Source: Vicinamibacterales bacterium (GTDB lineage: Bacteria; Acidobacteriota; Vicinamibacteria; Vicinamibacterales; Fen-181). From it: a DNA stretch of 64,000 nucleotides. The notes beneath the pieces are model-generated. The model did not search any database, was not told where the DNA came from, and worked only from the letters and a program-made list of their open reading frames with translations. Made by a program: the position numbers and the translations under genes. Shown piece by piece: positions 5,108 through 34,220 of this stretch. The stretch lies in NCBI GenBank assembly GCA_036504215.1, contig DASXVO010000039.1, positions 62,001-126,000 of the forward strand, written 5' to 3'. The stretch's first letter is position 1. Each line of letters starts with the position of its first letter.

Positions 5108-5136
5108 TTGCGTTCCGACGAACCACCGGATAGAAT
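5108..5136 (+). promoter_or_regulatory. Promoter of hydrogenase operon 1
   Basis: TTGCGT (5108-5113), exactly 17 bases, then TAGAAT (5131-5136). The predicted transcription start (about 5143) coincides with the first base of the tandem Rex-like boxes, so a bound repressor would block initiation. Confidence 0.55.
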
Positions 5137-5142
5137 GCCGAA

Positions 5143-5182
5143 CTGTGAAAAGTGGCACAGATGCTTGTGCCATCCTTCACAA
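5143..5182 (+). promoter_or_regulatory. Tandem Rex-like operator of hydrogenase operon 1
   Basis: Two 18-base boxes: CTGTGAA-N4-GGCACAG (5143-5160) and TTGTGCC-N4-TTCACAA (5165-5182). Each has one consensus Rex half-site (TTGTGAA or TTCACAA type) and one with two mismatches. Together they form a near-symmetric 40-base dyad with outer TGTGAA/TTCACA and inner TGGCACA/TGTGCCA arms. A Rex gene with its own tandem boxes is encoded at 33543-34220. Confidence 0.65.
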
Positions 5183-5240
5183 ACCCGCCAGCGGCCTCCA
5201 CGTCGGCGCAGCAATAGCCGACTGTCTGCGGTCTGACTTC

Positions 5241-5321: not shown

Positions 5322-5702
5322 ATGGCCAAGATCCTCATCGTGGACGATGACCCCGACATTACCTTCGCTACCGGGTTGTTCCTGAAGAGGGAACAGCACG
5401 AAGTGCTGACGGCGTCGAGCCGTGAGGAAGGCATGGCGGCGATCGAGAGCGGCAACCCCGACCTCATCATTCTCGACGTGATGATGGAGCAGCCCGATGA
5501 CGGGATCGCCATGGCGCAGGAACTGCGCCGCCAGGGGTGCGAGACGCCGATTCTGATGTTGACGAGCGTCGGCAAGGTGACGGGATTCACCTACGACGAA
5601 GACCAGGAACTGGTTCCGGTGGACGCGTTCTTCGAGAAACCGATCCAGCCGGAAGCGCTGCTGAAGAAGGTCAACGAGTTGCTCGCGAAGAACAAGGAAT
5701 AG
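5322..5702 (+). CDS. Single-domain response regulator (hydrogenase-linked REC)
   Basis: A 126-residue stand-alone receiver domain: acidic pocket D8-D9-D10, phospho-acceptor D52 in IILDVMME, T81 and the conserved K106 in FFEKP. There is no output domain, so it acts by protein contact or in a phosphorelay. The stretch between T81 and K106 is about ten residues longer than in CheY. The REC protein at 26786-27190, in the second hydrogenase operon, has the same extension and the same LDxMMExxDDG signature. It is the first gene after the Rex-like operator, 10 bases ahead of hydC1. Confidence 0.9.
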   Translation: MAKILIVDDDPDITFATGLFLKREQHEVLTASSREEGMAAIESGNPDLIILDVMMEQPDDGIAMAQELRRQGCETPILMLTSVGKVTGFTYDEDQELVPVDAFFEKPIQPEALLKKVNELLAKNKE

Positions 5703-5712
5703 GGAGACGACC

Positions 5713-6225
5713 ATGCTAGTAGGGCAGCAGCAACGAGTGCAGGATGAAATCCGGGCTCTCGTCGAGCGCCATGGGCGGGCGCGGAACGCTCTGATCCCCG
5801 TCCTTCAGGAGCTCCAGCGCAACCACGCGACGATCTCCGATTTCGCCATGCAGGTGATCGCCGACGAGCTCGGAATCCACCCGGCGGAGGTCTACGGCGT
5901 GACGTCGTTCTACGCGTTCCTCCGCCAGGAGTCCCGGGGGCGGTTCGTGTTCCGGCTGTGCCAGACGGTCTCGTGCGACCTGGCGGGCAAGTCGCGCGTG
6001 GCCTGCCAGTTGGAGAACGACCTCGGGATCGGGTTCGGCGAGACGACGGCTGACGGGCGGTTCAGCCTCGAGTGGGCGAGTTGCCTGGGCATGTGCGACC
6101 AGGGCCCGGCGCTGCTCGTGAACGACCGGATATTCACGCGCGTCACGCCGGAGCGCGTGCACGAAATCATCGACGAGTGCAAGCGGACGTTCGGCGCCCA
6201 CGCGCGCCAGGCCGCTCACGCCTAG
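5713..6225 (+). CDS. hydC: HydC/NuoE-like [2Fe-2S] subunit of hydrogenase 1
   Basis: A 170-residue NuoE-type protein: an N-terminal helical part (LIPVLQELQRNHATIS, YGVTSFYAFL) and a thioredoxin-like [2Fe-2S] domain with cysteines in CQTVSCDLAGK and SCLGMCDQGPA (C-x4-C and C-x3-C). In HydABC and Hnd enzymes this subunit relays electrons near the flavin subunit. It lies 29 bases upstream of the NuoF-like gene and starts at 5713 with an SD-like GGGAGACG. Confidence 0.92.
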   Translation: MLVGQQQRVQDEIRALVERHGRARNALIPVLQELQRNHATISDFAMQVIADELGIHPAEVYGVTSFYAFLRQESRGRFVFRLCQTVSCDLAGKSRVACQLENDLGIGFGETTADGRFSLEWASCLGMCDQGPALLVNDRIFTRVTPERVHEIIDECKRTFGAHARQAAHA

Positions 6226-6254
6226 ATTCACATCCCTTCGAAGGGCAGGTAGCG

Positions 6255-7457
6255 ATGAACCCCGTGAGCAGCAAGAAGACGCCGTTCACCTTCGACAGTA
6301 TCGAGCCGGAATCCGGCCTGAAGTCGGCGCTCGGGAAGAGCCGTGCCGACATCATCGCCGAGATCAGCGCCTCGGGCCTCCGCGGCCGGGGCGGCGCCGG
6401 TTTCCCGACCGGGACCAAGTGGAACCTGGCGGCGGCGGCCAAGGTCAAGGCGGGCGGCAACAAATACGTCGTGTGCAACGCGGACGAGGGCGAGCCGGGT
6501 ACGTTCAAGGATCGGGTGATCCTCCTCGAGCACGCCGACCTCGTGTTCGAGGGCATGACGATCGGCGCGCTGGCCGTCGGCGCGAAGCTCGGCATCCTCT
6601 ACCTCCGCGGCGAGTACGTCTACATGCGGCCGCATCTCGACGCGGTGCTCCAGCGTCGGCGCCATCAGAAGCTCCTCGGCACGGCGATTGCGGGCCGCGA
6701 GGGTTTCGACTTCGATATCCAGATTCACATGGGCGCCGGCGCCTACGTGTGCGGCGAGGAGACGGCGCTCATCGAGTCGCTCGAGGGATGTCGCGGCGAG
6801 CCCCGCAACCGGCCGCCGTTCCCGGTGGACACCGGGTTTGACGGCCAGCCGACGATCGTCAACAACGTCGAGACGCTTGCCTGGGCGGCGTGCATCCTCA
6901 GCCGCAGCGCCCACTGGTTCAAGTCGATCGGCACCGACAAGTCGGCGGGGTACAAGCTGTTCAGCGTGTCGGGCGACTGCCGCGAGCCGGGCGTCTACGA
7001 ATTCCCGCTCGGGATCAGCGTGGCGGAACTCCTCCAGAAGGTGGGAGGCGAGGGCGCCAAGGCGGTCCAGGTCGGCGGTGCGTCGGGCCACTGCATCCCG
7101 GCCTCCGAGTTCTCGCGGCGCATCGCGTTCGAGGACATCTCGACCGGCGGCTCGATCATCGTGTTCGGGCCCGGACGCGACATGCTGGAGGTGGCGAAGA
7201 ACTTCATGGAGTTCTTCGTCGAGGAATCGTGCGGCCAGTGCACACCGTGCCGCGTCGGCAACGCGAAACTCCTCGAGGGCGTCGGGTTGCTGGAGCGCGG
7301 CGAGTGCTCGATGCAGTACGTCCAGGAGCTGCTGGGGCTGAGCGAAACGATGCAGCTGGCGTCGAAATGCGGCCTCGGGCAGTCGAGCCCGAACGCCTTC
7401 GTGTCGATCGTGAAGCATTTCAAGGACGAGATCATGGGCCGCACGCTGGTCCACTGA
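6255..7457 (+). CDS. hydB: HydB/NuoF-like flavoprotein of hydrogenase 1, short form
   Basis: About 400 residues: the FMN/NADH core with SGLRGRGGAGFPTGTKW and NADEGEPGTFKDR, VCGEETALIESLEG, and one [4Fe-4S] site in EESCGQCTPCRVG plus CGLGQSSPN. It oxidises or reduces NAD(H) and passes electrons to the Fe-S chain. Unlike its paralogue at 31064-33076 it lacks both the N-terminal thioredoxin-like [2Fe-2S] domain and the C-terminal two-[4Fe-4S] ferredoxin domain. The start is the ATG at 6255 after an AAGGGCAGGT element; the longer reading frame upstream overlaps hydC and is not used. Confidence 0.92.
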   Translation: MNPVSSKKTPFTFDSIEPESGLKSALGKSRADIIAEISASGLRGRGGAGFPTGTKWNLAAAAKVKAGGNKYVVCNADEGEPGTFKDRVILLEHADLVFEGMTIGALAVGAKLGILYLRGEYVYMRPHLDAVLQRRRHQKLLGTAIAGREGFDFDIQIHMGAGAYVCGEETALIESLEGCRGEPRNRPPFPVDTGFDGQPTIVNNVETLAWAACILSRSAHWFKSIGTDKSAGYKLFSVSGDCREPGVYEFPLGISVAELLQKVGGEGAKAVQVGGASGHCIPASEFSRRIAFEDISTGGSIIVFGPGRDMLEVAKNFMEFFVEESCGQCTPCRVGNAKLLEGVGLLERGECSMQYVQELLGLSETMQLASKCGLGQSSPNAFVSIVKHFKDEIMGRTLVH

Positions 7458-7472: not shown

Positions 7473-9407
7473 ATGAGCGCTGACAAGAACCAGTGTTTCG
7501 ACACGTCGCGGGCGCCTGTGAGCCAGCGGGGCAAGCAGGTGACGACGAGCGGCGATTCGACCGGCTACATCGGTGGACTGGTCTCGATCACCATCGACGG
7601 CAGGGATCACAAGGTGCCGCTCGGCACCACGGTGCTCGAAGCCGCCAAGCAGCTCGGCATCCGCATTCCGACGCTCTGCCATCATCCCGATCTGTGCGTC
7701 GCCGGCGTCTGCCGCGTCTGTGTCGTCGAAGTGGAGAACCAGCGGACGCTCCAGGCGGCGTGCGCGTACCCGGTGACCGCGCCGCTCAAGGTGAAGACGC
7801 ACACCCCGAAGGTGCGGCAGGCCCGGCGTCACATCATCGACCTGCTGCTGTCCCAGCACTACGGCGAGTGCTACAGCTGCAAGCGAAACAACAACTGCGA
7901 GCTGCAGTCGCTGTCGAAGGAATACGGCGTCGACTTCTACCGATTCGGACACCCGACCGAGTCGCGGTTCCCGATCGACCGATCGAGTTACTCGGTCATC
8001 CGTGACATGGACAAGTGCGTCCTGTGCCGCCGCTGTGTCCGCACCTGCATCGACGTGCAGGAGGTCGGCGTGCTCGAGACGGTCGGCCGCAGCGACCAGA
8101 CAAGGGTCGCCACCTACCTGGACAAGCCGCTCGGCGAGGTGGTGTGCATCAACTGCGGGCAGTGCATCAACCGCTGCCCGACCGGCGCGCTGCACGCCAA
8201 CGACACGTCCGACGAGGTCTGGCGCGCGATCGACGACCCGACCAAGCACGTCGTCATCCAGACGGCGCCGAGCCCGCGGGCCGGCATCGGCGAGTGCTTC
8301 GGCCTCGAGCCGGGTATTCCGATGACCTACCAGTTGAACACCGCGCTGAAGCTGTGCGGCTTCGACAAGGTGTTCGACACGAACTTCACCGCCGACCTGA
8401 CGATCATCGAAGAGGGCACCGAGCTGCTGCTCCGCCTGCACAAGGCCCTCGTGAAGAAGGAAGCGGTCGCGTTCCCGCAGTTCTCGAGCTGCTCACCGGG
8501 CTGGGTGAAGTACCTCGAGCACTTCTATCCGGAGTACATCCCGAACCTCTCGACGGCGAAGAGTCCGCAGCAGATGTTCGGCGCCGTCATCAAGACGTAC
8601 TACGCCAAGCTCAACAACCTCGACCCGAAGGACATCGTGACCGTCGCGTTGATGCCCTGCTCGGCCAAGAAGTTCGAGTGCAATCGGCCGGAGATGGACT
8701 CGAGCGGCTTCAAGGACGTGGACTACGGCCTCACGACGCGCGAGATGGCGCAGATGATCAAGGAAGCCGGGATCCATCTGCCCGACATGTCGAAGGGCGA
8801 GTTCGACGATCCGTTTGGCACGGCGACCGGGTCCGGCGTGATCTTCGGCGCCACGGGGGGCGTCATGGAGGCGGCGCTGCGGACGGTGATCGAGCTGGTG
8901 ACGGGCAAGAAGGTCGAAAGCCTGTTCGACCACGCAGACATCATTCCGCTGCGGGGCTTCGACGGCGTGAAATACGTCGAGTTGCCGATTCCGGAGGTCA
9001 GCCCCGACGTTATCCCGCTCCTCAAGCACCTCATCCCCAACTGGGACTTCCTGAAGGGGGCCACGCTGAAGGTAGCGGTGGCGCACGGCACGGCGAACGC
9101 AAAAAGGGTGATGGAGAACATCAAGGCCGGCGGCCAGTTCTCGCAGTGTCATTTCATCGAGTTCATGGGCTGCCCGGGCGGCTGCATCGGCGGCGGGGGC
9201 CAGCCGATCCCGACTTCGCCCGAGATTCGCAAGGCGCGGGCGCGGGCGATCTACGAAGAAGACACGGCATGCGAGGTCCGCAAGTCGCACGAGAACCCGG
9301 CCGTGCTCAAGATCTACGCGGAGTTCCTGACCGAGGGGCCGTGCGGCCACCTGTCGCACGACCTCCTGCACACGCACTACACGCCGCGGGGGAAATTCAT
9401 CGGGTAG
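7473..9407 (+). CDS. hydA: [FeFe]-hydrogenase catalytic subunit HydA1 (NuoG-like M3 type)
   Basis: A 644-residue M3-type catalytic subunit. Iron-sulfur ligands in order: [2Fe-2S] C69, C80, C83, C97; His-Cys [4Fe-4S] H129, C133, C136, C142; two ferredoxin clusters C182-C192 and C225-C235; then the H-cluster domain with SSCSPGW (338-344), LMPCSAKKFE (C396) and EFMGCPGGCIGGGGQP (C567, C571). It makes or consumes H2 with electrons from the HydB/HydC subunits. The first H-cluster motif reads SCSP where the textbook form is TSCCP. Sixteen bases separate it from hydB1; a GC-rich hairpin follows the gene. Confidence 0.95.
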   Translation: MSADKNQCFDTSRAPVSQRGKQVTTSGDSTGYIGGLVSITIDGRDHKVPLGTTVLEAAKQLGIRIPTLCHHPDLCVAGVCRVCVVEVENQRTLQAACAYPVTAPLKVKTHTPKVRQARRHIIDLLLSQHYGECYSCKRNNNCELQSLSKEYGVDFYRFGHPTESRFPIDRSSYSVIRDMDKCVLCRRCVRTCIDVQEVGVLETVGRSDQTRVATYLDKPLGEVVCINCGQCINRCPTGALHANDTSDEVWRAIDDPTKHVVIQTAPSPRAGIGECFGLEPGIPMTYQLNTALKLCGFDKVFDTNFTADLTIIEEGTELLLRLHKALVKKEAVAFPQFSSCSPGWVKYLEHFYPEYIPNLSTAKSPQQMFGAVIKTYYAKLNNLDPKDIVTVALMPCSAKKFECNRPEMDSSGFKDVDYGLTTREMAQMIKEAGIHLPDMSKGEFDDPFGTATGSGVIFGATGGVMEAALRTVIELVTGKKVESLFDHADIIPLRGFDGVKYVELPIPEVSPDVIPLLKHLIPNWDFLKGATLKVAVAHGTANAKRVMENIKAGGQFSQCHFIEFMGCPGGCIGGGGQPIPTSPEIRKARARAIYEEDTACEVRKSHENPAVLKIYAEFLTEGPCGHLSHDLLHTHYTPRGKFIG

Positions 9408-18841: not shown

Positions 18842-20179
18842 CTACTTGCCCGCGTTCTTCGCGGCGCGGCGGATGATGTCCAGCGCCTCGTCGATCTCGT
18901 CGGTCGTCACGTCGAGTGGTGGACGGAATCGCAGGCTCAATCGGCCGCAGCTGAGAATCACGAGCCCGAGTTCGTACGCCTCGTCGCCCACCTTGTCCCG
19001 CGTGGCGGTGTCGGGGAAGTCGATGGCGCACATCAGGCCGCGGCCGCGCGCGTTCGAGAACACGTCGGGCCGCCCGGCCTGCATCGCCTCGAGGCCGGCC
19101 TGTAGGTGCGCGCCAGCCTTTGCCGCATGCTCCACCAGGCCGTCTTCCTCGATGATCTCCAGGTACCGCGTCGAGCGGACCATGTCCACGAGGTTTCCGC
19201 CCCAGGTCGAGTTCAGCCGGCTCGACACCTTGAACACGTTCTCGGGTTCCTCGTCGATGCGCGGGCCGGCCAGCATGCCGCACACCTGCATCTTCTTGCC
19301 GAAGGCGAGCAGGTCCGGCTGCACGCCGAAGTGCTGGTGCGCCCAGAACCGGCCGGTCAGGGCCACGCCCGCCTGCACCTCGTCGAAGATCAGCAGCGCC
19401 TCGTGCTCGTCGGCCAGCCGGCGGAGCGCCTGCAGGAACTCCGGGCGATAGTGGTTGTCGCCGCCCTCCGCCTGGATCGGTTCGATGATGATCGCCGCAA
19501 TGTCATCGCGACGCGACGCGAACGCCTGCTCGATTTCGCCAATCGCCTGCCGTTCGATCGCCGCCACGCGGTCGATCTCGACGGCGTTCAGCGGGAAGTG
19601 CAGCGCCGGGTTCGTGATCCGCGGCCAGTCGAACTTCGCGAAATACTGGTACTTCCGCGGATCGGCCGTGTTCGTGAGCGACATCGTGTAGCCGGTGCGC
19701 CCGTGGAACGCATCGCGGAAGTGGATGACCTGGTGTCCCTTCTCCTCGCGCAGGCCCTTCCGGAAGTTGCGGCGGACCTTCCAGTCCATGGCCGCCTTGA
19801 GCGCGTTCTCGACGCCCAGCGCGCCGCCCGCCACGAAGAAGGCATAGGGCAGGTACGGGGGAATTCCCACGCGCGCGAACGTGGACACGAACTCGGCGAA
19901 CTCGACCGTGTAGATGTCGGAGTTGGTCGGGTTCGCAAGCGCCGCCCGCAGGAGTTTCTCCCGGAACACCGGGTCCGCCATCTTCGGATGGTTGAGGCCG
20001 AGCGGTGCCGTGGCGAAGAACGAGAACATGTCGAGTACGGCGCGACCGCGGCGCGCGTCCCACAGACGCCGTCCCTTGCTGCGGTCGACGTCGAGCACCA
20101 TGTCGTACCCGTCCGCCAGTATGTGCTGGCCCAGCGTCTCGTGCACGAGCGCCGGGCTGATGGTGGTCACACTCTTCAT
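18842..20179 (-). CDS. lat: L-lysine 6-aminotransferase
   Basis: A 445-residue class-III aminotransferase of the lysine-epsilon type: HETLGQHILADGYDMVLD at the N-terminus, FFVAGGALGVENALKAAMDW, FHGRTGYTMSLTNT, LIFDEVQAGV, and the PLP lysine in LLAFGKKMQVCG. It transfers the epsilon-amino group of lysine to 2-oxoglutarate, giving aminoadipate semialdehyde. AAGGAGAGA precedes the ATG at 20179. The start overlaps the stop of the Lrp-type regulator by four bases (ATGA), so the two are co-translated and the regulator probably responds to lysine or a product. Confidence 0.92.
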   Translation of the reverse strand: MKSVTTISPALVHETLGQHILADGYDMVLDVDRSKGRRLWDARRGRAVLDMFSFFATAPLGLNHPKMADPVFREKLLRAALANPTNSDIYTVEFAEFVSTFARVGIPPYLPYAFFVAGGALGVENALKAAMDWKVRRNFRKGLREEKGHQVIHFRDAFHGRTGYTMSLTNTADPRKYQYFAKFDWPRITNPALHFPLNAVEIDRVAAIERQAIGEIEQAFASRRDDIAAIIIEPIQAEGGDNHYRPEFLQALRRLADEHEALLIFDEVQAGVALTGRFWAHQHFGVQPDLLAFGKKMQVCGMLAGPRIDEEPENVFKVSSRLNSTWGGNLVDMVRSTRYLEIIEEDGLVEHAAKAGAHLQAGLEAMQAGRPDVFSNARGRGLMCAIDFPDTATRDKVGDEAYELGLVILSCGRLSLRFRPPLDVTTDEIDEALDIIRRAAKNAGK

Positions 20180-20670
20180 ACGGTCTCTCCTTCGGCGACT
20201 GGGGCAACGTACGTTTCTTCCTTCACGGTCGCGAGCACGACCACGGTCCGGGTCCGGCTGACACCCTCGAGAGAGCCCAACTGGTGGAGCAACAGCTGCC
20301 TCAGCGCTTCCATGTTGCTCACCCGCACCTTCAGCAACAGGGAGAACTCGCCGGTGACGTGGTGACACTCGAGCACCTCGTCCAGCCCGATGACGCGCTC
20401 GAGCAGCGTGGACTCGTGACGCGGTTGGTCGAGGAAGACCTCCACGAACGCCGTGATCGACGCGCCGACCGCCTGGGGGTCGACGAGCGCCGTCCAGCGG
20501 CGAATGACCCCCGCGGCCTCGAGCTTCTTCAGCCGCTCGTGAACCGCTGCCGTCGACAACCCGACCTGTCGCGCGATCTCGGACTGCGCGAGCGACGCAT
20601 CCCTCTGAACCAGCGTCAGAATCAGCCGGTCACGGTTGTCCAGATCTGGGAAAACATTCGCTGCTTTCAT
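20176..20670 (-). CDS. Lrp/AsnC-family regulator of lysine aminotransferase
   Basis: 164 residues: an N-terminal winged helix-turn-helix (LAQSEIARQVGLSTAAVHERLKKLE) and a C-terminal RAM domain (ITAFVEVFL, CHHVTGEFSLLLKV). It is a feast/famine regulator that normally binds an amino acid and forms octamers. Operon position ahead of lat suggests control of lysine catabolism. Immediately upstream (20672-20696) is a strikingly AT-rich stretch with partial dyad symmetry, a plausible operator and promoter. Confidence 0.9.
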   Translation of the reverse strand: MKAANVFPDLDNRDRLILTLVQRDASLAQSEIARQVGLSTAAVHERLKKLEAAGVIRRWTALVDPQAVGASITAFVEVFLDQPRHESTLLERVIGLDEVLECHHVTGEFSLLLKVRVSNMEALRQLLLHQLGSLEGVSRTRTVVVLATVKEETYVAPVAEGETV

Positions 20671-23088: not shown

Positions 23089-24318
23089 ATGCAGCCAACT
23101 CCCCGTTCGCTTCGGCTCCACATCGGGATCTTCGGTCGGCGCAACGTCGGCAAGTCGTCGCTGTTGAACGCGATCACGCGTCAGGAGGTGTCCATCGTAT
23201 CCGAGGTCGCGGGCACGACCACCGATCCTGTCGAGAAACCGATGGAACTGCTGCCGCTCGGTCCGGTGCAGTTCGTGGATACCGCCGGCGTGGACGACGA
23301 GGGGGCCCTCGGAGCGCTCCGCATCGAACGGACGAAGGCCGTGCTGGACCGTGTGGACCTGGGGGTCATCGTCACGGAGGGAGGGGCCTGGGGCCCGTTC
23401 GAGGAGACGCTGCTCGGCGAACTCGAGGCGCGCCGCGTGCCGGTCCAGGTGGTGTTCAACAAGTCGGACCTGAAGCGTCCCGACGCGCCAGAACGTGAGC
23501 GGCTCGAGTCCGTTCACGTGCCGTTCGTCGTCATCTCCGCGCTGGACGGATCCGGTGCGATGACCCTGCGCGAAGCGCTCCTCGCGCTCGCGCCGGGCGA
23601 TTTCTTCGACAACCGTCGTTTGGTGGCCGATCTCGTGCCGCCCGGCGAAGTTGCCGTGCTCGTTGTCCCGATCGACAAGGAAGCGCCGAAGGGGCGATTG
23701 ATCCTGCCGCAGGTCATGACGATTCGCGATCTGCTCGACAGCGAGTCGATGGCGCTCGTGACGCAGGAGCGGGAGCTGCGGCGCGCGCTCGGCCGCCTGA
23801 CGCGGCCGCCGGCGCTCGTCGTGACCGACTCGCAGGTCTTCCTGAAGGTCGCCGCCGACGTGCCGCCGGACGTCCCGATGACGTCGTTTTCGATCCTGAT
23901 GGCACGCTTCCAGGGCGACCTCACCGAGCAGGTGCGCGGGACGCGCGGCATCGAGCGGTTGCAAGGTGGCGACCGCGTGCTCGTTGCCGAGTCGTGCAGC
24001 CATCATCCGGTGGGCGAGGACATCGGCCGTGTGAAGATTCCGCGCTGGCTGACGCAGTACGTCGGTGCGCGCCTGGAGTTCGAACACGTCCAGGGTCGCG
24101 ACTTCCCCCGAGACCTGTCGCCGTACCGGCTTGTCGTGCACTGCGGCAACTGCGTGGGCAACCGGCGCGAGATGTTGTCGCGCATCCACCGGTGTCGAGA
24201 GGCCGGCGTCCCCATCACCAACTACGGCCTGACGATTGCCTACTCGCTTGGGATTCTCGACCGCGCGCTGCAGCCCTTTCCTGCAGCGCTGGAGGCCTCG
24301 CGTGCCGCTCGCGCTTGA
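23089..24318 (+). CDS. hydF: [FeFe]-hydrogenase H-cluster maturation GTPase HydF
   Basis: 409 residues. GTPase motifs GRRNVGKSSL (P loop), GTTTDPV, DTAGVDDEG and NKSD lie in the first ~170 residues. A dimerisation domain and a C-terminal cluster domain with SCSHHP (C-x-H) and, about 45 residues on, HCGNCVGNR (C-x2-C) hold the [4Fe-4S] cluster on which the di-iron subcluster is assembled and delivered to HydA. The last 17 bases overlap the GTG start of hydE. Confidence 0.95.
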   Translation: MQPTPRSLRLHIGIFGRRNVGKSSLLNAITRQEVSIVSEVAGTTTDPVEKPMELLPLGPVQFVDTAGVDDEGALGALRIERTKAVLDRVDLGVIVTEGGAWGPFEETLLGELEARRVPVQVVFNKSDLKRPDAPERERLESVHVPFVVISALDGSGAMTLREALLALAPGDFFDNRRLVADLVPPGEVAVLVVPIDKEAPKGRLILPQVMTIRDLLDSESMALVTQERELRRALGRLTRPPALVVTDSQVFLKVAADVPPDVPMTSFSILMARFQGDLTEQVRGTRGIERLQGGDRVLVAESCSHHPVGEDIGRVKIPRWLTQYVGARLEFEHVQGRDFPRDLSPYRLVVHCGNCVGNRREMLSRIHRCREAGVPITNYGLTIAYSLGILDRALQPFPAALEASRAARA

Positions 24319-25381
24319 TCCTCTCGATCACGACACCCTCGTCGGCTGGCTCCGCGAACCGGATCCGGTCGCTCTCGAACGGCTGTGGCAACGTGCGGAC
24401 GTCGTCCGTGCTGAACACGTGGGCGACGCCGTTCACTTGCGCGGCCTGATCGAAGTGAGCAATCACTGCGTCCGCTACTGCCTGTACTGCGGGATCCGCG
24501 CATGTTCTCCCGGGATCACCCGGTACCGGATGACCGCGGACGAGATCCTGGCGTGTGCCCGCGAGGCCAGGAGGCTCGGCTACGGAACCGTGGTGTTGCA
24601 GTCGGGCGAGGACCCCGAGCTGACACGCGAGTTCGTGGAGGACGTCGTGCGGGCGATCAAGGTGGAGACCGGGCTCGCCGTGACGCTGAGCGTTGGGGAG
24701 CGGAGTGACGGGGACCTGATGGCCTGGAAACAGGCCGGCGCCGATCGATTCCTGCTCCGCTTCGAGACCTCGGACCCGGACTTGTACCGGCGCATCCATC
24801 CCTCGCTGCCGGGCACGCTGTCGGACCGCGTCGCCCAGTTGCTGCGGATGCGCGAGATGGGCTACGAGATCGGCAGCGGGGTGATGGTGGGTGTCCCCGG
24901 TCAGACCTACGATATCCTCGCCCGCGACATCGAGTTGTTCCGCGATCTCGACATCGACATGATTGGCATCGGACCCTTCCTTCCCAGCCCGAGGACGCCG
25001 CTCGGTGGCGAGGCGGCAGCGCGGCTGTGCGCGCCGGACGGCGACCAGGTGGCCAACAGCGAGTCGATGACGCTCAAGGCAGTCGCGTTGACGCGATTGG
25101 TCTGCCCGGAGGCCAACCTGCCCAGCACGACGGCGCTGGCGACGATCGACCCGGCCACGGGCCGCGAGCTGGGGCTGGTGCGCGGTGCGAACATCGTGAT
25201 GCCCAACGTCACGCCGCCGGCGTATCGCGTGCTGTACGAAATCTACCCGGGGAAGGCCTGCATCCACGAGACCGCGCAGGCGTGCCGCGGCTGTCTCGAA
25301 GGCCGCATCCGATCGATCGGCCGTGTCGTCGGCTCGGGCCCCGGCGGACGTCGCCGGAGCGCGGCCGTTCTCCCGAGCTGA
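24302..25381 (+). CDS. hydE: Radical SAM H-cluster maturase HydE
   Basis: 359 residues starting with GTG at 24302 inside the end of hydF. The radical-SAM motif is NHCVRYCLYCGI (C-x3-C-x2-C); RYRMTADEIL, VVLQSGEDPEL and GVPGQTYDILARDI match HydE barrels, and the family's C-terminal region is complete. It processes the HydG product on the way to the di-iron subcluster. Translational coupling to hydF is evident. Confidence 0.95.
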   Translation: MPLALDPLDHDTLVGWLREPDPVALERLWQRADVVRAEHVGDAVHLRGLIEVSNHCVRYCLYCGIRACSPGITRYRMTADEILACAREARRLGYGTVVLQSGEDPELTREFVEDVVRAIKVETGLAVTLSVGERSDGDLMAWKQAGADRFLLRFETSDPDLYRRIHPSLPGTLSDRVAQLLRMREMGYEIGSGVMVGVPGQTYDILARDIELFRDLDIDMIGIGPFLPSPRTPLGGEAAARLCAPDGDQVANSESMTLKAVALTRLVCPEANLPSTTALATIDPATGRELGLVRGANIVMPNVTPPAYRVLYEIYPGKACIHETAQACRGCLEGRIRSIGRVVGSGPGGRRRSAAVLPS

Positions 25382-25536: not shown

Positions 25537-26703
25537 TCAGGACACGCTGAGCGGCGCCGGTGGGTTCGCCGCCTGGGCGCTCTGGGCGTGGAGCACGACG
25601 AGGAAGGTGCTGCCGACGTTCGGGGCGCTCTCCACCGTGACGTCGCCGCCGTACAACTGAGCCAGCTTCTTCACGATCGACAGCCCGAGTCCCGTGCCGG
25701 GAATGGCCCGCGTCCGATCGTTCTTGATCCGGACGAACTCCTGGAACAGCCGTCCCGCTTCGTCAGGTGAGAGCCCGATGCCGGTGTCGGCGACCTGGAA
25801 CCGAACTCCCGTGTCCGTCGGTTCGATACACACCTCGACACGGCCGCCGTCGCGGTTGTACTTCACCGCGTTGCTCACGAGGTTGTTGAAGAGGATCTCG
25901 AGCTCGCCGCGGTCCGCGACGATCCACACGTGCTCGGGAGCATGAAGTGCCAGGGACACCCGCCGCTCGGCAGCTGCCGTGGCCGCCGTGTCGAGCGCCG
26001 CCTGGGCCACCTCGCGGACGTCCACCTGGCTGAACTCCCGCCGCTTCTGTCCCGACTCGATGCGCGTCAAGTCGAGGAGTTCGCTGATGAGCCGCCGCAT
26101 CCCGCCCGCGCGCGCCAGGGCGCGGTCCACCACCTGCGCCTGGACCACCGGATCGGTTCCCGCGGTGCCGTCCTTCAGAATCTGGAGGAAGCCCTCGATC
26201 GCCGCGAGCGGCGCCTTCAATTCGTGGCCGAGCACCGAAATGAACTGGAAGCGCACCTGGCGCTTCTCCAGGGCCAACTGCCGCGCCTGCCGCTGCACCA
26301 TCAGGTGCTTGACGACGCGCCGGACCGCGACGCGCAGCTCGTCGGGAGTGAAGGGCTTCGGAAGGAAGTCGTGGGCGCCGCGCTTGGTCGCATCGATGGC
26401 CGTCTCGAGCGTGGCGTAGGCGGTGATCATCACCGTGAGCGTCTGGATGTTCCGCTCGCTGATTTGCCTGAGGACGTCGAGGCCGGAGATGCCCGGCAGC
26501 TTGAGGTCGAGCAGCACGATGTCGGGCACCGCCGCGGCCATCCGTTCGAGGGCCTCCTCGCCGGTCTCCGCGGTCTGCACGTCGAAGTTGACCGCGGCCT
26601 CGGTCTGGTCGCCGACCCTCACCGTGAAGGTGCTGAGCACCCGCGCGATCGCCATCCGCATCCCGGTCTCGTCATCGACCACCAGCACTCGGAGGGTTTC
26701 CAT
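25537..26703 (-). CDS. REC-histidine kinase hybrid (response regulator fused to HisKA-HATPase)
   Basis: 388 residues. An N-terminal receiver domain (VLVVDDETG, phospho-Asp in IVLLDLKLPGISG, K in FLPKPF) is followed by HisKA with the His in VLGHELKAPLAAIEG and an ATPase domain (NLVSNAVKYNR, DTGIGLSPDE, GTGLGLSIVKKLAQLYGG). There is no membrane segment, so it is cytosolic. Its receiver probably accepts phosphate from another kinase. It is the last gene of the rex-hyd2 operon. The ATG at 26703 with GAGGTGTGAG before it is preferred over an in-frame TTG at 26715. Confidence 0.9.
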   Translation of the reverse strand: METLRVLVVDDETGMRMAIARVLSTFTVRVGDQTEAAVNFDVQTAETGEEALERMAAAVPDIVLLDLKLPGISGLDVLRQISERNIQTLTVMITAYATLETAIDATKRGAHDFLPKPFTPDELRVAVRRVVKHLMVQRQARQLALEKRQVRFQFISVLGHELKAPLAAIEGFLQILKDGTAGTDPVVQAQVVDRALARAGGMRRLISELLDLTRIESGQKRREFSQVDVREVAQAALDTAATAAAERRVSLALHAPEHVWIVADRGELEILFNNLVSNAVKYNRDGGRVEVCIEPTDTGVRFQVADTGIGLSPDEAGRLFQEFVRIKNDRTRAIPGTGLGLSIVKKLAQLYGGDVTVESAPNVGSTFLVVLHAQSAQAANPPAPLSVS

Positions 26704-26785
26704 CTCACACCTCAAGACACGCCAACCACCAGCGTTTCTGGTTCCAACGAGGCTTGCCGTCGGTCCGAGGCACGCCTCGCTGGAA

Positions 26786-27190
26786 TTACCTGACCGTCAG
26801 CAGCCGGTCCATCTCGCGCCGCAGTTGCTCGAAGCGGATGGGCTTGGCCAGCACGGCGTCCGCCCCCACCCACGCTCGTTCCGCGGCGGACGCGGGGTTG
26901 AAGCTCAATCCGGTCTCGCTGGTCACGGCCGTGACCATGATGATCGGCAGGCCGGGGAACGCACGCTTCAGATGATGCGACAGGACGAAGCCGTCATCGT
27001 GTCGTTCCATCATGAGATCGAGGATGGCGAGGTCCGGCGTGAAGTGGCGAATCGCCTCCTCGGCCTGCGAACGCGTGGCGGCGGTCGTCACTTCGAAGCC
27101 GGCGTTCTCCAGCTGAATCCGATGCTGGAACAAGAAGTCCTCGTCGTCGTCCACGAGGAGGATGTTGATGGTGGCGCGTGTGCTTGACAT
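26786..27190 (-). CDS. Single-domain response regulator of the hydrogenase 2 operon
   Basis: 134-residue stand-alone receiver: acidic pocket in LLVDDDED, phospho-acceptor D58 in LAILDLMMERHDDG, Thr in IIMVTAV, Lys in AVLAKPIRF. As in the REC protein at 5322, the segment between Thr and Lys is about ten residues longer than usual. The shared LDxMMExxDDG motif suggests the two are paralogues specialised for hydrogenase operons. It sits between the H-cluster kinase and the REC-kinase, an arrangement fitting a phosphorelay. Confidence 0.9.
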   Translation of the reverse strand: MSSTRATINILLVDDDEDFLFQHRIQLENAGFEVTTAATRSQAEEAIRHFTPDLAILDLMMERHDDGFVLSHHLKRAFPGLPIIMVTAVTSETGLSFNPASAAERAWVGADAVLAKPIRFEQLRREMDRLLTVR

Positions 27191-27247: not shown

Positions 27248-29257
27248 TCAGGCCGCCGTGGCGCCGCTCTCCCGCCGTCGCGGCAGCACGACCGTGAACG
27301 TCGTTCCCGTCGGACCTCTGGCGGCGTCGGCGTTCGAGTGGACTTTGATGTCGCCGCGATGCATCTTCACGATGCCGTAGCTGACCGCGAGGCCGAGACC
27401 GGTGCCCTTGCCGACCTTCTTCGTCGTGAAGAACGGCTCGAAGAGTTTCGGGAAGTGTTCGGGCGGGATCCCGACGCCGGTGTCCGATACGATGATGCGG
27501 ACGTGGTCCGCATCATCCTCGGTCCGAATCCGCAACACGCCGCCGTCCGGCATCGCCGCGAACGCGTTGCTGACGAGATTCACGAGGACCTGCGTGATTT
27601 GGTCCGGATCCACTTCGATGGACGGGTCGCTCACCTGGTGCTCGACCTCCACCTCGACGCCGAGCGGGTGCGCGACGCCGCGGAGGCCGCGTTGCACGAG
27701 TTCAGCCAGGTCGATCCGGTCGTGCTCCACCTTGTTCTGCCGCGCGAAGTCGAGGAGGCCGGCCACGATCTTCTTGCAGCGATCGGCCTGCTCGACCACC
27801 ATCGCGAGGTCTTCGCGGTACTCGGGCTTGTCGCCGATCTGCTCCATTAGGAAATGGGCATACATGATGACGACGCCGAGCGGGTTGTTGACCTCGTGCG
27901 CGATCCCGGCCGCGAGCTGGCCCATGCTCGCGAGCTTTTCGGAGCGCACCAACGCGACCTGGGCGTTGGCGAGTTCCTCGTTGGATCGACCCAGTTCGTA
28001 CACGGTTTCGCGCAGGTGCTCGATGCTGTGAGGCAGACACATCTCGGGCTCGGCCAGACCGCGGTAGATGGCGCTCGCCAGCTCACGGCAGCTCGAGTAC
28101 CCGCACGCCCCGCAGTTCAGCTCGTTGGTCGGATCCGGCTTGCCCAGGTCGGTCAGCAGCCGCTGCAACTCTTCCGGCGACGGTACCGGCAGGCGCAGAT
28201 CCTTGGCGGCATAGGCGCGGGAGAGATCGACGTGCGCGTAGCTGGCGATGCGTCTCTCCCAGGCGGCCTGATCGCTTTCCGCGATCCGCCGGCGGACATA
28301 CTGGCTGACGCGGGCCCGGCGGCCGAAGTGCGGCAGATCGGAACTCATCCCGGGGCCCATCGTGCAGCCGCGGCAGAAGAGGACTTCGAGCAACCGTGTG
28401 TCGAGCAGGCCCGATTCGGCTTCCTTGATGGCCTGCGCGAACTCGGCGGGGCCTTCGGCGACCATCACGTGACCCGTGACGAGATCCTCCTGGATGCCGG
28501 CCACCTGCAGCATGCCGCCGCTGAGCGGGAACAGGCCGCCGCCACGGCTCTGGGGCGGATCGAAGTCGAAGGCGGGAACGACCTTCGGGTCGAGATCGCG
28601 CGACGCGACCATCTGACGCAGTTCGGCGAAGGTGAGCGCCTCGTCCACCTCGCCCTGCAGCTCGGTTGACTCGCGCTTCTTGGCGATGCACGGGCCGACG
28701 AAGACGATCCGGAGGTCACCGCCGTGAGCCTGCCGGAGCAGCCGGGCCGTCGCAATCATCGGCGAGACGATCGGGGCGAGGGCGGCCGTGAGGTCGGGAT
28801 AGTAGCGCTCGACGTACCCGACGACCGATGGGCAGGTCGTGGCAATCCAGAGCTTGTCGGTGTCGCGGGAGACCAGCCGCCGGTATTCGAGCGCCACGAG
28901 TTCGGCGCCGAACGCGACTTCATGTACCGACGCGAACCCCAGGGCCCGCAGCGTGCCGACGACCGCCGGGTAGTCGAGGTCGATGAACTCGGCCGGGAAG
29001 CTGGGCGCGATGATTGCTGCGACGGGCTCGGGGCCGGCCAGCAGCGCTTCGACGGCCTCCACCGCGGACACGACGCTCTTGGCGGACTGCGTGCACACCT
29101 TCACGCACACGCCGCAGCCGATGCAGCGTTCCGGCAGCACCTGCGCCTTCAGGTCGGCGATGCGGATGGCCTTCGCCGGGCACTCACGCACGCACTGGTA
29201 GCAGACGCGGCACCGTTCGCCGATCGTGGACACCAGCGGGACCAGGGTTGCGTTCAC
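27248..29257 (-). CDS. HydS-like sensor: H-cluster domain fused to a histidine kinase
   Basis: 669 residues from the GTG at 29257. Order: two [4Fe-4S] sites (C16, C19, C22, C26; C45, C48, C51, C55); an [FeFe]-hydrogenase large-domain fold with modified motifs ATTCPSV (C142), [10 protein letters not shown] (C190) and [11 protein letters not shown] (C295, C298); a small Fe-S domain [10 protein letters not shown] (C382, C385, C390, with C407); HisKA with H454 in [12 protein letters not shown]; and an ATPase domain ([33 protein letters not shown]). The proton-shuttle cysteine is replaced by Thr and the last motif is C-x2-C rather than C-x3-C. This resembles sensory, not catalytic, [FeFe] proteins. 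A GTG at 29296, three bases after hydA2, is an alternative start. Confidence 0.88.
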
Positions 29258-29299
29258 GTCAGGGCTCGCTCTCAGGGCTCTCGGCTCGTGGCCCACCGT

Positions 29300-31024
29300 C
29301 TACATGACTACGTTCCGCGCCTCGTATTCCGTGTGCAACAGTTCGTGGCTGCGGTGCGACAACGGCTTCTCCAGGAATTCCGCGTAGAGCCGGTGGATGG
29401 CCGGGTTCTGATGCGACGCGCGCAGCGGGGCGTCGCGGTCGATCGCGTAGAGGGCCTGCATCCGCGCGCGCACCGCATCGGGCGAGGCCGCGCGCGGCTG
29501 GCCGCCGCCGTTGATGCACCCGCCGGGGCACGCCATCACCTCGATGAGGTGGAGGTCCTTGCGCCCGGCGCGAATCTGCTCGACCAGCGCCCGGGCCTGC
29601 CCGAGCCCGGACACCGCCGCCACACCGATCTCGCGACCGGCGATCGTCGCCCGGTACTCCTTGATGCCGTCGAGACCGCGAAGTGGCTGGATCCTGGCGG
29701 GCGCGGCAGGCTCGCCGGTGAGGAGGAAGTGCGCGGTCCGCAGCGATGCCTCGGCCACACCGCCGCTGGCGCCGAAGATCTTCCCGGCCGCGGTGCGCTC
29801 GCCGAACGGCGTGTCCGGTGCCTCGGGCGGGAGCGCGTTCAGGTCGAGGCCGTGCATCCGGATGAGCTCCGCGAGTTCCCGCGTCGTCAGCACCGCATCG
29901 ATGTCAGGGCGGCCGTTGCGCCCCATTTCCGGCCGTCCCGCCTCGAACTTCTTCGCGGTGCACGGCATGACGGCCACGCTGAAGATGCGGGAGGGGTCGA
30001 TCTTCTCACGATCGGCGAAGAAGCTCTTGATGACCGCACCGAGCATCTGCTGCGGGCTCTTGCAGGTCGAGAGGTGCGGGATCATGTCGGGGTAGAACTG
30101 CTCGACGAACTTAATCCAGCCGGGCGAGCAGCTCGTCATCATCGGGATCGGCGCGTCCGCCGTGGTCAGCCGCTGCACGAGCTCGGACGCCTCTTCCATG
30201 ACCGTGAGATCGGCGGAGAACGCCGTGTCGAACACCCGGCGGAAGCCGAGTCGGCGGAGCGCGGCGGCCAGCACACCGTCCACATCGGAGCCCGGCTTCG
30301 CACCGAACTCCTCAGCCAGGCTGACCGACACCGCCGGCGCGTGCTGGACGACGACGAATCGGTCGGGGTCGCTGAGCGCGGCCATCACTTCTTCGAGCGC
30401 GCTGTGCTCGTTGAGCGCGCCGGTCGGGCACACGGCCACGCACTGGCCGCAGTTGACGCAACTGCTGATGTTCGGCCCCTCGTCGAACGCCGTTCCCACG
30501 CGGGCCCGGCTGCCACGGCCGATGAAGTCGAGCGCGCCCACCGTTTGGATCTCCTCGCACACGCGCACGCACTTGCCGCAGAGGATGCACTTGGCCGGCT
30601 CGCGGACGATCGCCGGGCTCGCCACGTCGAGGCGGGCCGGGGTGCGGCCGCCGAAGTATCGGCGACGCCGGACACCCAGTTGCTCGGCCAGCGCCTGCAG
30701 CTCGCAGTCGCCGCTGCGCGAACAGTAGAGGCAATCGTCCGGGTGGTTGGCGAGCAGGAGTTCGACCAGCGTCTTGCGGGCATCGACGGCGCGCGACGAG
30801 TGCGTGCGGACCTTCATGCCGGACGCGACTGGGTACGCGCAGCTCGGCACGAGGCCGCGCTGCCCTTCGACGTCCACGACGCACATGCGGCAGGCGCCGC
30901 TCGGCGGCAGGCCGTCGTAGTGGCAGAGCGTTGGGATGGTGATCCCGGCGCGCCGCACGGCCGTGAGCAGCGTCTCGCCGTCCTGCGCATCCACGGTCCG
31001 TCCGTTGACCTCGATCTTGATCAC
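29300..31024 (-). CDS. hydA: [FeFe]-hydrogenase catalytic subunit HydA2
   Basis: 574 residues, M3-type: [2Fe-2S] (C34, C45, C48, C62), His-Cys cluster in HPDDCLYCSRSGDC, ferredoxin sites C146-C156 and C189-C199, and H-cluster motifs MTSCSPGW (C299), VMPCTAKKFE (C354) and EVMACPGGCINGGGQP. It is shorter than HydA1 because it lacks that protein's ~40-residue N-terminal extension. As in HydA1, the first motif has SCSP. The GTG at 31024 is chosen because AGGAGAGG precedes it; the frame is open to 31051. It is third in the rex-hydC-hydB-hydA order. Confidence 0.95.
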   Translation of the reverse strand: MIKIEVNGRTVDAQDGETLLTAVRRAGITIPTLCHYDGLPPSGACRMCVVDVEGQRGLVPSCAYPVASGMKVRTHSSRAVDARKTLVELLLANHPDDCLYCSRSGDCELQALAEQLGVRRRRYFGGRTPARLDVASPAIVREPAKCILCGKCVRVCEEIQTVGALDFIGRGSRARVGTAFDEGPNISSCVNCGQCVAVCPTGALNEHSALEEVMAALSDPDRFVVVQHAPAVSVSLAEEFGAKPGSDVDGVLAAALRRLGFRRVFDTAFSADLTVMEEASELVQRLTTADAPIPMMTSCSPGWIKFVEQFYPDMIPHLSTCKSPQQMLGAVIKSFFADREKIDPSRIFSVAVMPCTAKKFEAGRPEMGRNGRPDIDAVLTTRELAELIRMHGLDLNALPPEAPDTPFGERTAAGKIFGASGGVAEASLRTAHFLLTGEPAAPARIQPLRGLDGIKEYRATIAGREIGVAAVSGLGQARALVEQIRAGRKDLHLIEVMACPGGCINGGGQPRAASPDAVRARMQALYAIDRDAPLRASHQNPAIHRLYAEFLEKPLSHRSHELLHTEYEARNVVM

Positions 31025-31063
31025 AACCTCTCCTCGCGAAACCACAGCCACCGAGTCATGTCG

Positions 31064-33076
31064 TCACGCCGCCGTCACCGCGTCGAAGTGGCACACATCC
31101 ACGCAGGTACCGCAGGCGATGCAGCGTTCCGGGATCACGTGGTGCGGGCTCTTCAGCGTGCCGACGATGGCCTCGGACGGGCAGTTCTTGACGCACACCG
31201 AGCAGCCCGTGCACTTGTCCTCGTCGATCGTGTACTCCAGCAACTCGCCGCACGCCTTGGCGGGGCAGCGCCGGTCGTAGACGTGCGCCTCGTACTCATC
31301 GCGGAACCACCGGAGCGTGCTCAAGACCGGGTTCGGCGCCGACTGTCCCAGCCCGCAGAGACTGGTGTCCTGAATCACCTGCGCGAGGTGCTCGAGGTTC
31401 ATCACGCTCCGGAACCGCTCGAGCGCCTCGAACTCCTTTTCGTTGCGGCGGCTGCGCGACAGACTCTCCAGGATTTCCAGCATCCGCCGCGTGCCCTCGC
31501 GGCACGGGATGCACTTCCCGCAGCTCTCACGCTGGATGAAGTCCATGAAGAACTTCGCGATGTCGACCATGCACGTCGATTCGTCCATCACGACGAGTCC
31601 GCCCGAGCCCATCATCGCGCCGACACGCTTGAGCGACTCGTAGTCGATGTCGATGTCGAGGTGCTGCGACGGGATACAGCCGCCAGAGGGGCCGCCAATC
31701 TGCACAGCTTTGTACGCCTTCCCGTTCGGAATGCCGCCGCCGATGTCGAAGACGATCTGCCGGAGCGGCGTGCCCATCGCCACCTCGACCAGCCCGGTGC
31801 GCGCCACCCTGCCGGAGAGGGCGAAGACCTTGGTGCCCTTGCTCGTCTCCGTCCCGATGCTCGTGAACCACTCTTCGCCGTTGAGGACGATCGCCGGCAC
31901 GTTCGCGAGCGTTTCGACGTTGTTGATCACCGTCGGTTTGCCGAACAGGCCGCGGACCGCGGGGAACGGCGGCCGCGGTCGCGGCATGCCGCGACGGCCC
32001 TCGATGCTGTGGAGGAGCGCCGTTTCCTCGCCGCAGACGAATGCGCCGGCACCCTGCTTCAGGGCGATCTCCAGGCTGAAGCCGGAGTCGAGGATGTTGC
32101 GGCCCAGGAGACCGAAGGTCTTCGCCTGTGCCATGGCGTGCTGCAGCCGCCTGATGGCGAGCGGGTATTCGGCGCGGATGTAGATGTAGGCCTTGCTCGC
32201 GCCTATCCCGTAGGCGGCGAGCGCGAGGCCTTCGAGCACGCGATGCGGATCGCCCTCGATGACCGCGCGATCCATGAACGCGCCCGGGTCGCCCTCGTCC
32301 GCGTTGCAGACCATGTATTTCTGATCCGCGGAGTGCTTGAGCGCGATCTTCCACTTGGTGCCCGTCTTGAAGCCGCCGCCTCCGCGTCCGCGCAGGCCGG
32401 CGCGCTCGATGAAGTCGCACAACTCGGCCGGCGTCCGCTCGCGCAGGGCCCTGGCCAGGCCCGCATAGCCGCCGCGTGCGACGTATTCCTCGAGGCTCGT
32501 CGGGTCGAGGATGCCGCAGTTGGCGAGCACCCAGCGCGTCTGGCGCGCGAAGAACGGATGCTCGTCGAGATACGCGACGTCGGGCCACCCTTCGACGTTC
32601 GCGCCCCGGAACTGCCCCAGCGGCGTGACGGGGAACGGCGTGCCCCCGAAGACGCTGTCCAGCAGGGAGTCCACGTGTTTCTCGGTGACGCGCGGGAAGC
32701 TGAGGCGTGTGCGACCGACGAGCTGCACGTCGAGGAGCGGTTCCTCGACACAGAGCCCGATGCAGCCGACCTCGACGATCTCCGCCCGCACGTGGGCGTG
32801 AACCTCGAGGTAGCGGCGGACCGCCGCGACGGTCTTCGCCGCGCCGGCGCCGAGGCCGCACGTGCCCGTGCCGATATAGATGACCGGTCGCGTGATCGTC
32901 TCGCGCCGCAGCCTCGCGTTGCGTGCCTGCCGAGTGTCGCGGCAGGCACGCGCCTCGTGGCAGAAGGGACCGGAAGTGAGGCATTCGACCAGCTGAGGGC
33001 AAGGGCGACCCGGGCCGTGCCAGCACTCCCCGCAGCAGCGAACGAAATCGACGTCCATGCGATCCTCGGCGGTCAT
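31064..33076 (-). CDS. hydB: HydB/NuoF-like flavoprotein of hydrogenase 2, long form with Cys-rich N-terminus
   Basis: 670 residues. An unusual N-terminal segment has seven cysteines in the first 45 residues (C14, C15, C18, C26, C32, C39, C45). Then comes a thioredoxin-like [2Fe-2S] domain (GTGTCGLGAG, VGCIGLCVEE; three of the usual four cysteines seen), the FMN/NADH core (GLRGRGGGGFKTGTKW, NADEGDPGAFMDR), the [4Fe-4S] site ESCGKCIPCREG, and a C-terminal two-cluster ferredoxin domain (CTGCSVCVKNCP, CIACGTCVDVCH). This is the domain order of HydB from bifurcating HydABC enzymes. It overlaps hydC2 by four bases. Confidence 0.93.
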   Translation of the reverse strand: MTAEDRMDVDFVRCCGECWHGPGRPCPQLVECLTSGPFCHEARACRDTRQARNARLRRETITRPVIYIGTGTCGLGAGAAKTVAAVRRYLEVHAHVRAEIVEVGCIGLCVEEPLLDVQLVGRTRLSFPRVTEKHVDSLLDSVFGGTPFPVTPLGQFRGANVEGWPDVAYLDEHPFFARQTRWVLANCGILDPTSLEEYVARGGYAGLARALRERTPAELCDFIERAGLRGRGGGGFKTGTKWKIALKHSADQKYMVCNADEGDPGAFMDRAVIEGDPHRVLEGLALAAYGIGASKAYIYIRAEYPLAIRRLQHAMAQAKTFGLLGRNILDSGFSLEIALKQGAGAFVCGEETALLHSIEGRRGMPRPRPPFPAVRGLFGKPTVINNVETLANVPAIVLNGEEWFTSIGTETSKGTKVFALSGRVARTGLVEVAMGTPLRQIVFDIGGGIPNGKAYKAVQIGGPSGGCIPSQHLDIDIDYESLKRVGAMMGSGGLVVMDESTCMVDIAKFFMDFIQRESCGKCIPCREGTRRMLEILESLSRSRRNEKEFEALERFRSVMNLEHLAQVIQDTSLCGLGQSAPNPVLSTLRWFRDEYEAHVYDRRCPAKACGELLEYTIDEDKCTGCSVCVKNCPSEAIVGTLKSPHHVIPERCIACGTCVDVCHFDAVTAA

Positions 33077-33546
33077 TTCTTGGTTGCCTCTCGGCGCAGG
33101 GTCTTGATCACCTTGATGGCCCGCTCAGACGTGGCGTCCGCGTGGAACTCGCCGTTGACCGCCATGAGCGGCGCGAGGCCGCAGGCACCCAGGCACGCCA
33201 CGACTTCCAGGCTGAAGAGGCCGTCGCGGGTCGTCTGACCCGGCTTGACCTGCAGCGTGCGCTCAACCGCCGACAGCGTCTGGCTCGAGCCCTTCACGTG
33301 GCAGGCGGTGCCACGGCAGAGCTGCACGTGGTAGCGGCCGAGCGGCTGGAACCGGAACTGGTTGTAGAAGGTGGCGACGCCGTAGACCTTGCTCGCCGGC
33401 AGCTTCAGGTACTGGCCGACGCGGACCACCGCCTCTCGCGAGAGGTAACCGTGCGCCGCCTGGACGTCCTGCAGCAGCGGGATCAACGCCTCACGACGTC
33501 CCGCCGGGTACTTGCTGACAATCGGATCGAGGTCTGGTGCGATCAT
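33073..33546 (-). CDS. hydC: HydC/NuoE-like [2Fe-2S] subunit of hydrogenase 2
   Basis: 157 residues: LIPLLQDVQAAHGYLSREA and KVYGVATFYNQFRF form the helical part; CRGTACHVKGS and ACLGACGLAP hold the [2Fe-2S] cluster. It shares operon position and fold with the copy at 5713. Its start overlaps the stop of rex by ATGA and its stop overlaps the start of hydB2 by ATGA, so rex, hydC2 and hydB2 are translationally coupled. Confidence 0.93.
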   Translation of the reverse strand: MIAPDLDPIVSKYPAGRREALIPLLQDVQAAHGYLSREAVVRVGQYLKLPASKVYGVATFYNQFRFQPLGRYHVQLCRGTACHVKGSSQTLSAVERTLQVKPGQTTRDGLFSLEVVACLGACGLAPLMAVNGEFHADATSERAIKVIKTLRREATKK

Positions 33547-34220
33547 CGGACTGAATCCTGTTCACCGAGCCGCAGGTGCGCGTAGTAGGCCACCTTGTCG
33601 AGGGCCATCATCAAGTCCACGTCCTCGACATACATGCCGGTCGGCAGATGAAGACGAATCGGCGCGAAGTTGAGAATCCCCTTCACCCCGGCGAGGATCA
33701 GGAGATCGGCCACCCCCTGGGCTTCTCCGGCGGGCACGGCGATGACGCCGACGTGGATTCCCTCGCGAGCGATGACTTCCGCCATCTGTTCGACCGGGTG
33801 GCAGCGGCATCCGTGCAGGATTCGCCCGGTCTTCTCGGGCGCCCGGTCGAAGGCAGCGGCGAATCGCACCGGTTGACGGTTGGCGTAGTAGGCGAGGATG
33901 GCGCGCCCGAGATTGCCGACGCCGACGAGCGCGACCGCAGTCTCGACCGATCGGGCGAGGACGGTGTTGATGGCCTCGACCAGTTCCTGGATGGCGTAGC
34001 CCTTCCGCGGGCTTCCGCTGAAGCCGATGGTCATCAGGTCGCGGCGAACCTGGGCGGGCGTGCTGACGGCCAGTCGGGCGAGCTGATGGGAGTAGACCTG
34101 GCGTGTGCCGGAGGCCAACTGCTCGTTCAGGAGGCGACGATACAGGCTCAGCCGGCCGATCGTATTGACCGGAATCGCGGGGCTGGTTTGTGGGGCTGTC
34201 GAGCGTGGCTGACGAGTCAT
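33543..34220 (-). CDS. rex: Redox-sensing transcriptional repressor Rex
   Basis: 225 residues. A winged-helix domain (TIGRLSLYRRLLNEQL, RLAVSTPAQVRRDLMTIG, SGSPRKGYAI) is followed by a Rossmann domain with VALVGVGNLGRAIL and a C-terminal domain-swap helix. Rex binds its operators when NADH is low and leaves DNA when NADH rises. It is the first gene of the hydrogenase 2 operon and should autoregulate it: two boxes lie directly upstream. The presence of similar boxes at 5143-5182 extends its probable regulon to hydrogenase 1. Confidence 0.95.
   Translation of the reverse strand: MTRQPRSTAPQTSPAIPVNTIGRLSLYRRLLNEQLASGTRQVYSHQLARLAVSTPAQVRRDLMTIGFSGSPRKGYAIQELVEAINTVLARSVETAVALVGVGNLGRAILAYYANRQPVRFAAAFDRAPEKTGRILHGCRCHPVEQMAEVIAREGIHVGVIAVPAGEAQGVADLLILAGVKGILNFAPIRLHLPTGMYVEDVDLMMALDKVAYYAHLRLGEQDSVR

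Follow-up and report, generated by a model that had tools for sequence, protein, structure and literature searches.

The question raised by this locus is which regulator acts at the promoter of hyd1, the first of two hydrogenase operons found in the window (the whole stretch of 64,000 nucleotides analysed here), and whether it is the Rex protein encoded with the second operon, hyd2, as the first-pass annotation had proposed. Upstream of hyd1, a promoter was predicted on the forward strand (5108-5136) from its sequence and conservation, with a –35 hexamer TTGCGT (5108-5113), a spacer of 17 nucleotides and a –10 hexamer TAGAAT (5131-5136). Directly 3′ of this conserved promoter, two boxes of 18 bp were read in the sequence on the same strand: CTGTGAA-AAGT-GGCACAG at 5143-5160 (box 1) and TTGTGCC-ATCC-TTCACAA at 5165-5182 (box 2). 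The position of the promoter predicts a transcript start at about 5142-5143, placing box 1 at +1 to +18 and box 2 at +23 to +40, with centres at about +9 and +31. The four half-sites recur once per 11 bp, and the centres of the boxes lie 22 bp from each other, which corresponds to roughly two turns of the helix. The promoter and both boxes had been recognized in the first-pass annotation, and all of them were confirmed at these positions.

When compared with the Rex operator (ROP) consensus TTGTGAA-N4-TTCACAA, box 2 was found to be an ROP palindrome with two mismatches, whereas box 1, with four, is weak when taken alone, and is not significant by itself given that about 4.6 sites with four or fewer mismatches are expected per window. 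This weakness is what speaks for a chance resemblance. However, sites with up to three mismatches number four in the 64 kb against 0.33 expected, and close pairs of boxes occur exactly twice in the window, at hyd1 and at rex (whose boxes have two and three mismatches), compared with none in 300 first-order Markov-random windows. Additionally, box 2 and the promoter are kept in six genomes, a conservation that already contradicts chance, and a fortuitous origin is thus scarcely credible. The hyd1 boxes are real and beyond chance.

The conservation of the site was followed in six genomes of the family, G000 (the genome of the window) to G005, with completeness values of 100% for G001, 83% for G002 and 91% for G003. 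The promoter and box 2 were kept in all six family genomes with hyd1 upstream DNA, the –35 and –10 elements reading GTTGCG and TARAAT with a spacer of 17-18, and within box 2 the TTGTGCC half-site is invariant while TTCACAA shows one change. It had been suggested that each hyd1 box carries one perfect and one weakened half-site, arranged as mirror images; the mirror-image arrangement stands, but weakening does not describe the second kind of half-site well, since TTGTGCC does not vary among the six genomes and appears to have been kept by selection instead of decaying. The inner half-site of box 1 reads GCACA in G000, G004 and G005 and is altered in G001, G002 and G003. Among more distant relatives, no box was found in the hyd1 upstream DNA of G032 and G041, both of which carry the window-type Rex, and a single box overlapping the predicted –35 element was found in G050. 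When the same operon was examined in many phyla, a box with up to three mismatches within 400 bp was present in 19 of the 71 usable upstream regions (the 19 include G001 and G002 again), against 1.6 in base shuffles. The conservation of the site, the boxes found at this operon in other phyla and the further sites beside redox operons described below together give good support, at the level of sequence, to control of hyd1 by a Rex-type regulator.

A different family of proteins could in principle recognize the same DNA, since CRP and Rex sites have an identical core, TGTGA-N6-TCACA, and CRP-like HTH proteins were found in most of the genomes. A regulator of the CRP/FNR family reading TGTG-N8-CACA is nevertheless quite unlikely, given that the boxes lie at predicted positions +1 to +40 rather than at –41.5 or further upstream, where an activator site would be placed, that G002 (83% complete) has the box and yielded no convincing CRP-like gene, and that in other phyla the same operon bears full 18-bp Rex boxes.

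The operon placed under this putative control opens with a stand-alone response-regulator receiver protein (5322-5702, forward strand, as are the following genes) and continues with hydC1 (NuoE-like, 5713-6225), hydB1 (NuoF-like, 6228-7457, with an approximate start in a frame that is open from 6072) and hydA1 (7473-9407), which encodes an NADH-dependent [FeFe] hydrogenase of group A6 (NF040763, 791 bits, above the cut-off). The receiver protein was rejected as reader of the boxes because it consists of PF00072 only and carries no DNA-binding domain. An Lrp/AsnC-type gene at 20179-20670, which gave a weak HTH match only and adjoins a lysine 6-transaminase gene, was also set aside. Directly 3′ of box 2, a leader block, CCCGCCAG-N2-GCCTCCACGTCGGCG (5183-5208, forward strand), is nearly identical in the six genomes, and its exact match is confined to the hyd1 leader; a possible GTCGGC/GCCGAC hairpin lies 3′ of it. 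A leader peptide running across box 2 (MLVPSFTNPPAASTSAQQ in G000, by eye) was rejected, since the next block is invariant at every codon position, and an RNA attenuator in the leader was rejected because the hairpins have no T-run behind them and no Rfam match was obtained.

The two boxes together constitute a 40-bp nested dyad (5143-5182, forward strand), in which half-sites 1 and 4 are reverse complements of each other, as are 2 and 3. Transcribed from the predicted start, this dyad would form a hairpin at the 5′ end of the hyd1 mRNA, with predicted energies of –15.8 to –20.9 kcal/mol across the six genomes. It could therefore be proposed that the element works mainly as RNA, the mirror-image half-sites being the arms of a 5′-terminal stem-loop that governs stability or translation of the hyd1 mRNA. 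In line with this, the energy is better kept than under random change of the left arm in G003 (fraction 0.0085) and G004 (0.047), although not clearly elsewhere, one change in G004 affects both sides of the dyad, and the conserved leader block follows immediately. However, this retention of energy, coming from a post hoc test in six genomes, is suggestive at most, tandem palindromes yield such hairpins by construction, and no Rfam match was found. In addition, variation is seen in the left arm and hardly at all in the right arm, which is box 2, a pattern that fits a DNA site better. A possible role of the dyad as a 5′ mRNA hairpin may accompany the operator; that RNA is its main function is highly unlikely.

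The Rex encoded in the window, here called Rex-H, belongs to the second HydCBA set. The rex gene (33543-34220, reverse strand, with its ATG at 34220) heads the hyd2 operon (29300-33546, reverse strand), which comprises hydC2 (33073-33546), hydB2 (31064-33076) and hydA2 (29300-31051), the hydrogenase being likewise of group A6. Its promoter, TTGACA (34287-34282)-N17-TAGACT (34264-34259), occupies 34259-34287 on the reverse strand, and a pair of boxes at 34256-34239 and 34239-34222 (34222-34256 on the same strand) lies between the –10 element and the start codon. These boxes are 17 bp apart centre to centre and overlap by one base. The same 17-bp overlapping pair was found at rex-H in G004, G005, G032, G041 and G050, and Rex-H-like genes elsewhere in the phylum also show the overlapping layout, sometimes with three or four boxes. 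The autoregulatory pair of the Rex-H clade thus resembles hyd1 in having two Rex-type boxes after the –10 element, but it is overlapping, with symmetric CTGTGA/TCACAG halves at 17 bp, whereas the hyd1 pair has mirror-image halves at 22 bp. Of the "same plan" once ascribed to both promoters, the succession of promoter and boxes was borne out and the shared geometry was not: the two promoters have a common layout and different operators.

Other genes around hyd2 are also related to hydrogenases. Directly after hydA2, a protein encoded at 27251-29296 (reverse strand) shows similarity to ferredoxin and FeFe hydrogenase domains and has a C-terminal histidine kinase, and beyond it lie genes for a receiver protein (26789-27190) and for another histidine kinase (25540-26715); these genes likely form an H2-sensing signalling set. 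The FeFe hydrogenase maturases HydF and HydE are encoded at 23089-25378 of the window. In G004, hydrogenase 2 does not follow the rex-H gene (L087, contig C480), which is surrounded by HydG-, HydE- and HydF-like genes, as judged by eye from translations.

The genome of the window was found to encode not one but two Rex proteins, Rex-H and a canonical Rex-2 on contig C89. Rex-H has the N-terminal winged HTH domain (PF06971) and the NAD-binding domain (PF02629) of the family, with QVRRDL as recognition helix and GFSGSPRKGY as wing. In Thermotoga maritima Rex, DNA is contacted by Arg48, Lys49, Arg60 and Gly61 (PMC8836258). All four residues are retained in Rex-2, whereas Rex-H keeps Arg48 and has Arg, Pro and Arg in place of Lys49, Arg60 and Gly61, respectively. 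Judged by domains and score, Rex-H is still a Rex, yet a divergent one, and its site preference cannot be assumed, given the divergence of its contact residues.

The distribution of the two paralogues separates their possible roles. Rex-2 is present in all six family genomes with the hyd1 site, whereas Rex-H was not found in G001, G002 and G003, where box 2 and the promoter are retained. Moreover, in 24 genomes of the order where either no Rex or only a Rex-2-type protein was detected, canonical boxes with at most one mismatch numbered 52, compared with one in the reversed control, and among their neighbours are nqrA, an atp operon and a gene for a multihaem cytochrome of QrcA type, which is typical Rex territory. 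Taken together, the presence of Rex-2 in all six genomes and the boxes of Rex-2-only genomes make Rex-2 the simplest, and on comparative grounds most likely, reader of box 2. On the other hand, the inner half-site of box 1 is intact only in relatives holding Rex-H, and it is altered in both lineages that have no Rex-H; a tree of three operon proteins pairs G003 with the Rex-H-bearing G004, so that Rex-H was likely lost twice. A link between Rex-H and box 1 is suggested by two loss events, in a set of genomes among which G002 and G003 are incomplete, and Rex-H probably adds occupancy at box 1.

These findings bear on the claim that Rex-H alone reads both pairs of boxes and couples the two hydrogenases to NADH at different thresholds. 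In its favour, Rex-H lies within the hyd2 operon with a box pair in its own promoter, no genome without Rex-H has an intact box 1, and in G004 Rex-H adjoins FeFe-maturase-like genes. However, box 2 is retained in three genomes without Rex-H, the pairs differ in spacing (22 versus 17 bp), Lys49 is changed to Arg and Arg60-Gly61 to Pro-Arg, and G032 and G041 carry Rex-H together with a hyd1 that has no box. Rex-type control of hyd1, as claimed in the first-pass annotation, holds well, but control by Rex-H through a matching pair is the weaker part of that claim, owing to the different spacing, the absence of Rex-H from G001-G003 and the second Rex on C89. Rex-H as sole regulator of both operons is accordingly unlikely, and the window Rex-H is probably not the sole reader of hyd1.

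Rex is known to repress in its NAD+-bound form and to be released by NADH (PMC2883068, PMC8836258). From the sequence, its conservation, the spacing and the paralogues, we infer binding, repression, an NADH response and a choice of paralogue at hyd1, where the two boxes would act as a tandem Rex-type operator spanning roughly +1 to +40. At low NADH, the first part of the transcribed region would be occupied by NAD+-bound Rex dimers, which would block the operon of the response regulator and HydCBA; upon a rise in NADH, Rex would leave, and the NADH-dependent [FeFe] hydrogenase would be made and would dispose of electrons as H2. Box 2 would be held by Rex-2, from C89, while Rex-H, encoded with hydrogenase 2, would add occupancy at box 1. 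This whole reading, an NADH-relieved tandem operator with Rex-2 at box 2 and Rex-H at box 1, is considered likely. What speaks against it are the four mismatches of box 1, the deviations of both boxes described below and the hyd1 operons of G032 and G041, which have Rex-H in the genome and no box. A more elaborate version, in which the two proteins bind one face of the helix with 22 bp between them and hyd1 integrates two NADH set points, with the dyad perhaps also acting as a 5′ stem-loop, is put forward tentatively, as an outside possibility. Regarding affinity, Staphylococcus aureus Rex bound less well to sites altered at positions 6 and 7 of the half-site or with G/C in the spacer (PMC2883068). 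Each of the hyd1 boxes shows all of these deviations, and by analogy hyd1 may be a lower-affinity operator, as suggested in the first-pass annotation, which also raised cooperative binding.

The hyd1 operator resembles the TTGTGAA-N4-TTCACAA ROP described for S. aureus, Streptomyces, Thermotoga and Caldicellulosiruptor (PMC2883068, PMC8836258, PMC6391272) in its 18-bp palindrome, N4 spacer, TGTG..CACA core and predicted position at or just after the promoter of a redox operon, but differs from it in the tandem arrangement at 22 bp, in one half per box reading (T/C)TGTGCC and in spacers that are partly G/C. In Caldicellulosiruptor bescii, Rex controls the FeFe hydrogenase and hydG genes and was shown by gel shift to bind upstream of FeFe hydrogenase genes (PMC6391272), and a Rex site was predicted for hnd of Solidesulfovibrio fructosivorans, Hnd being an electron-bifurcating NADH-linked hydrogenase (PMC10084766). 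As in these systems, the FeFe hydrogenase operon hyd1 is preceded by a Rex-type site, and unlike them it belongs to Acidobacteriota and has two Rex paralogues, a response-regulator gene in first position and a paired operator. It is an Acidobacteriota instance of known Rex-hydrogenase biology; for this lineage, the literature searched yielded no paper that dealt with Rex and hydrogenase. If the proposed regulation is correct, Rex control of NADH-linked FeFe hydrogenases extends to an Acidobacteriota lineage known here from genome assemblies alone, it is the NADH pool that governs how these organisms release H2 in fermentation, and the loss of Rex-H in two lineages offers a natural system for operator sharing by two Rex paralogues.

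Further Rex-type sites were sought across the genomes by pattern searches. The pattern TTGTG-N8-CACAA is rare and was found in 17 places in the six genomes, hyd1 among them, compared with one for the reversed control. A perfect box precedes an MbhD/NuoL/NuoB-like operon in G000 and G005, with a one-mismatch box in G003, and in G006 (L227) an MbhD/complex I-like operon is preceded by two perfect Rex boxes with a spacing of exactly 22 bp. A site was also found before a thiosulfate-reductase-like gene in G001-G003, and a two-mismatch box before nuoA in G000. No support was drawn from a box close to the atp genes of G000, G001 and G002, since it overlaps a predicted coding frame. Autoregulation of Rex-2 was likewise rejected: the operator-like CTTGTGA...CAAG before Rex-2 turned out to be the beginning of its coding sequence, with the GTG start codon and the codons next to it, and its promoter has no box. 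In G000, three TTGTG-N8-CACAA boxes lie within about 100 bp (L092:4975-5078, contig C35) before genes for a decahaem cytochrome and an MtrB/PioB porin, a cluster that may be of Rex or CRP type. Another Rex-like match (L008, contig C40 of G000) sits inside a gene, and its QueC-like and TatD-like neighbours resemble, by eye, a Qat-type defence locus.
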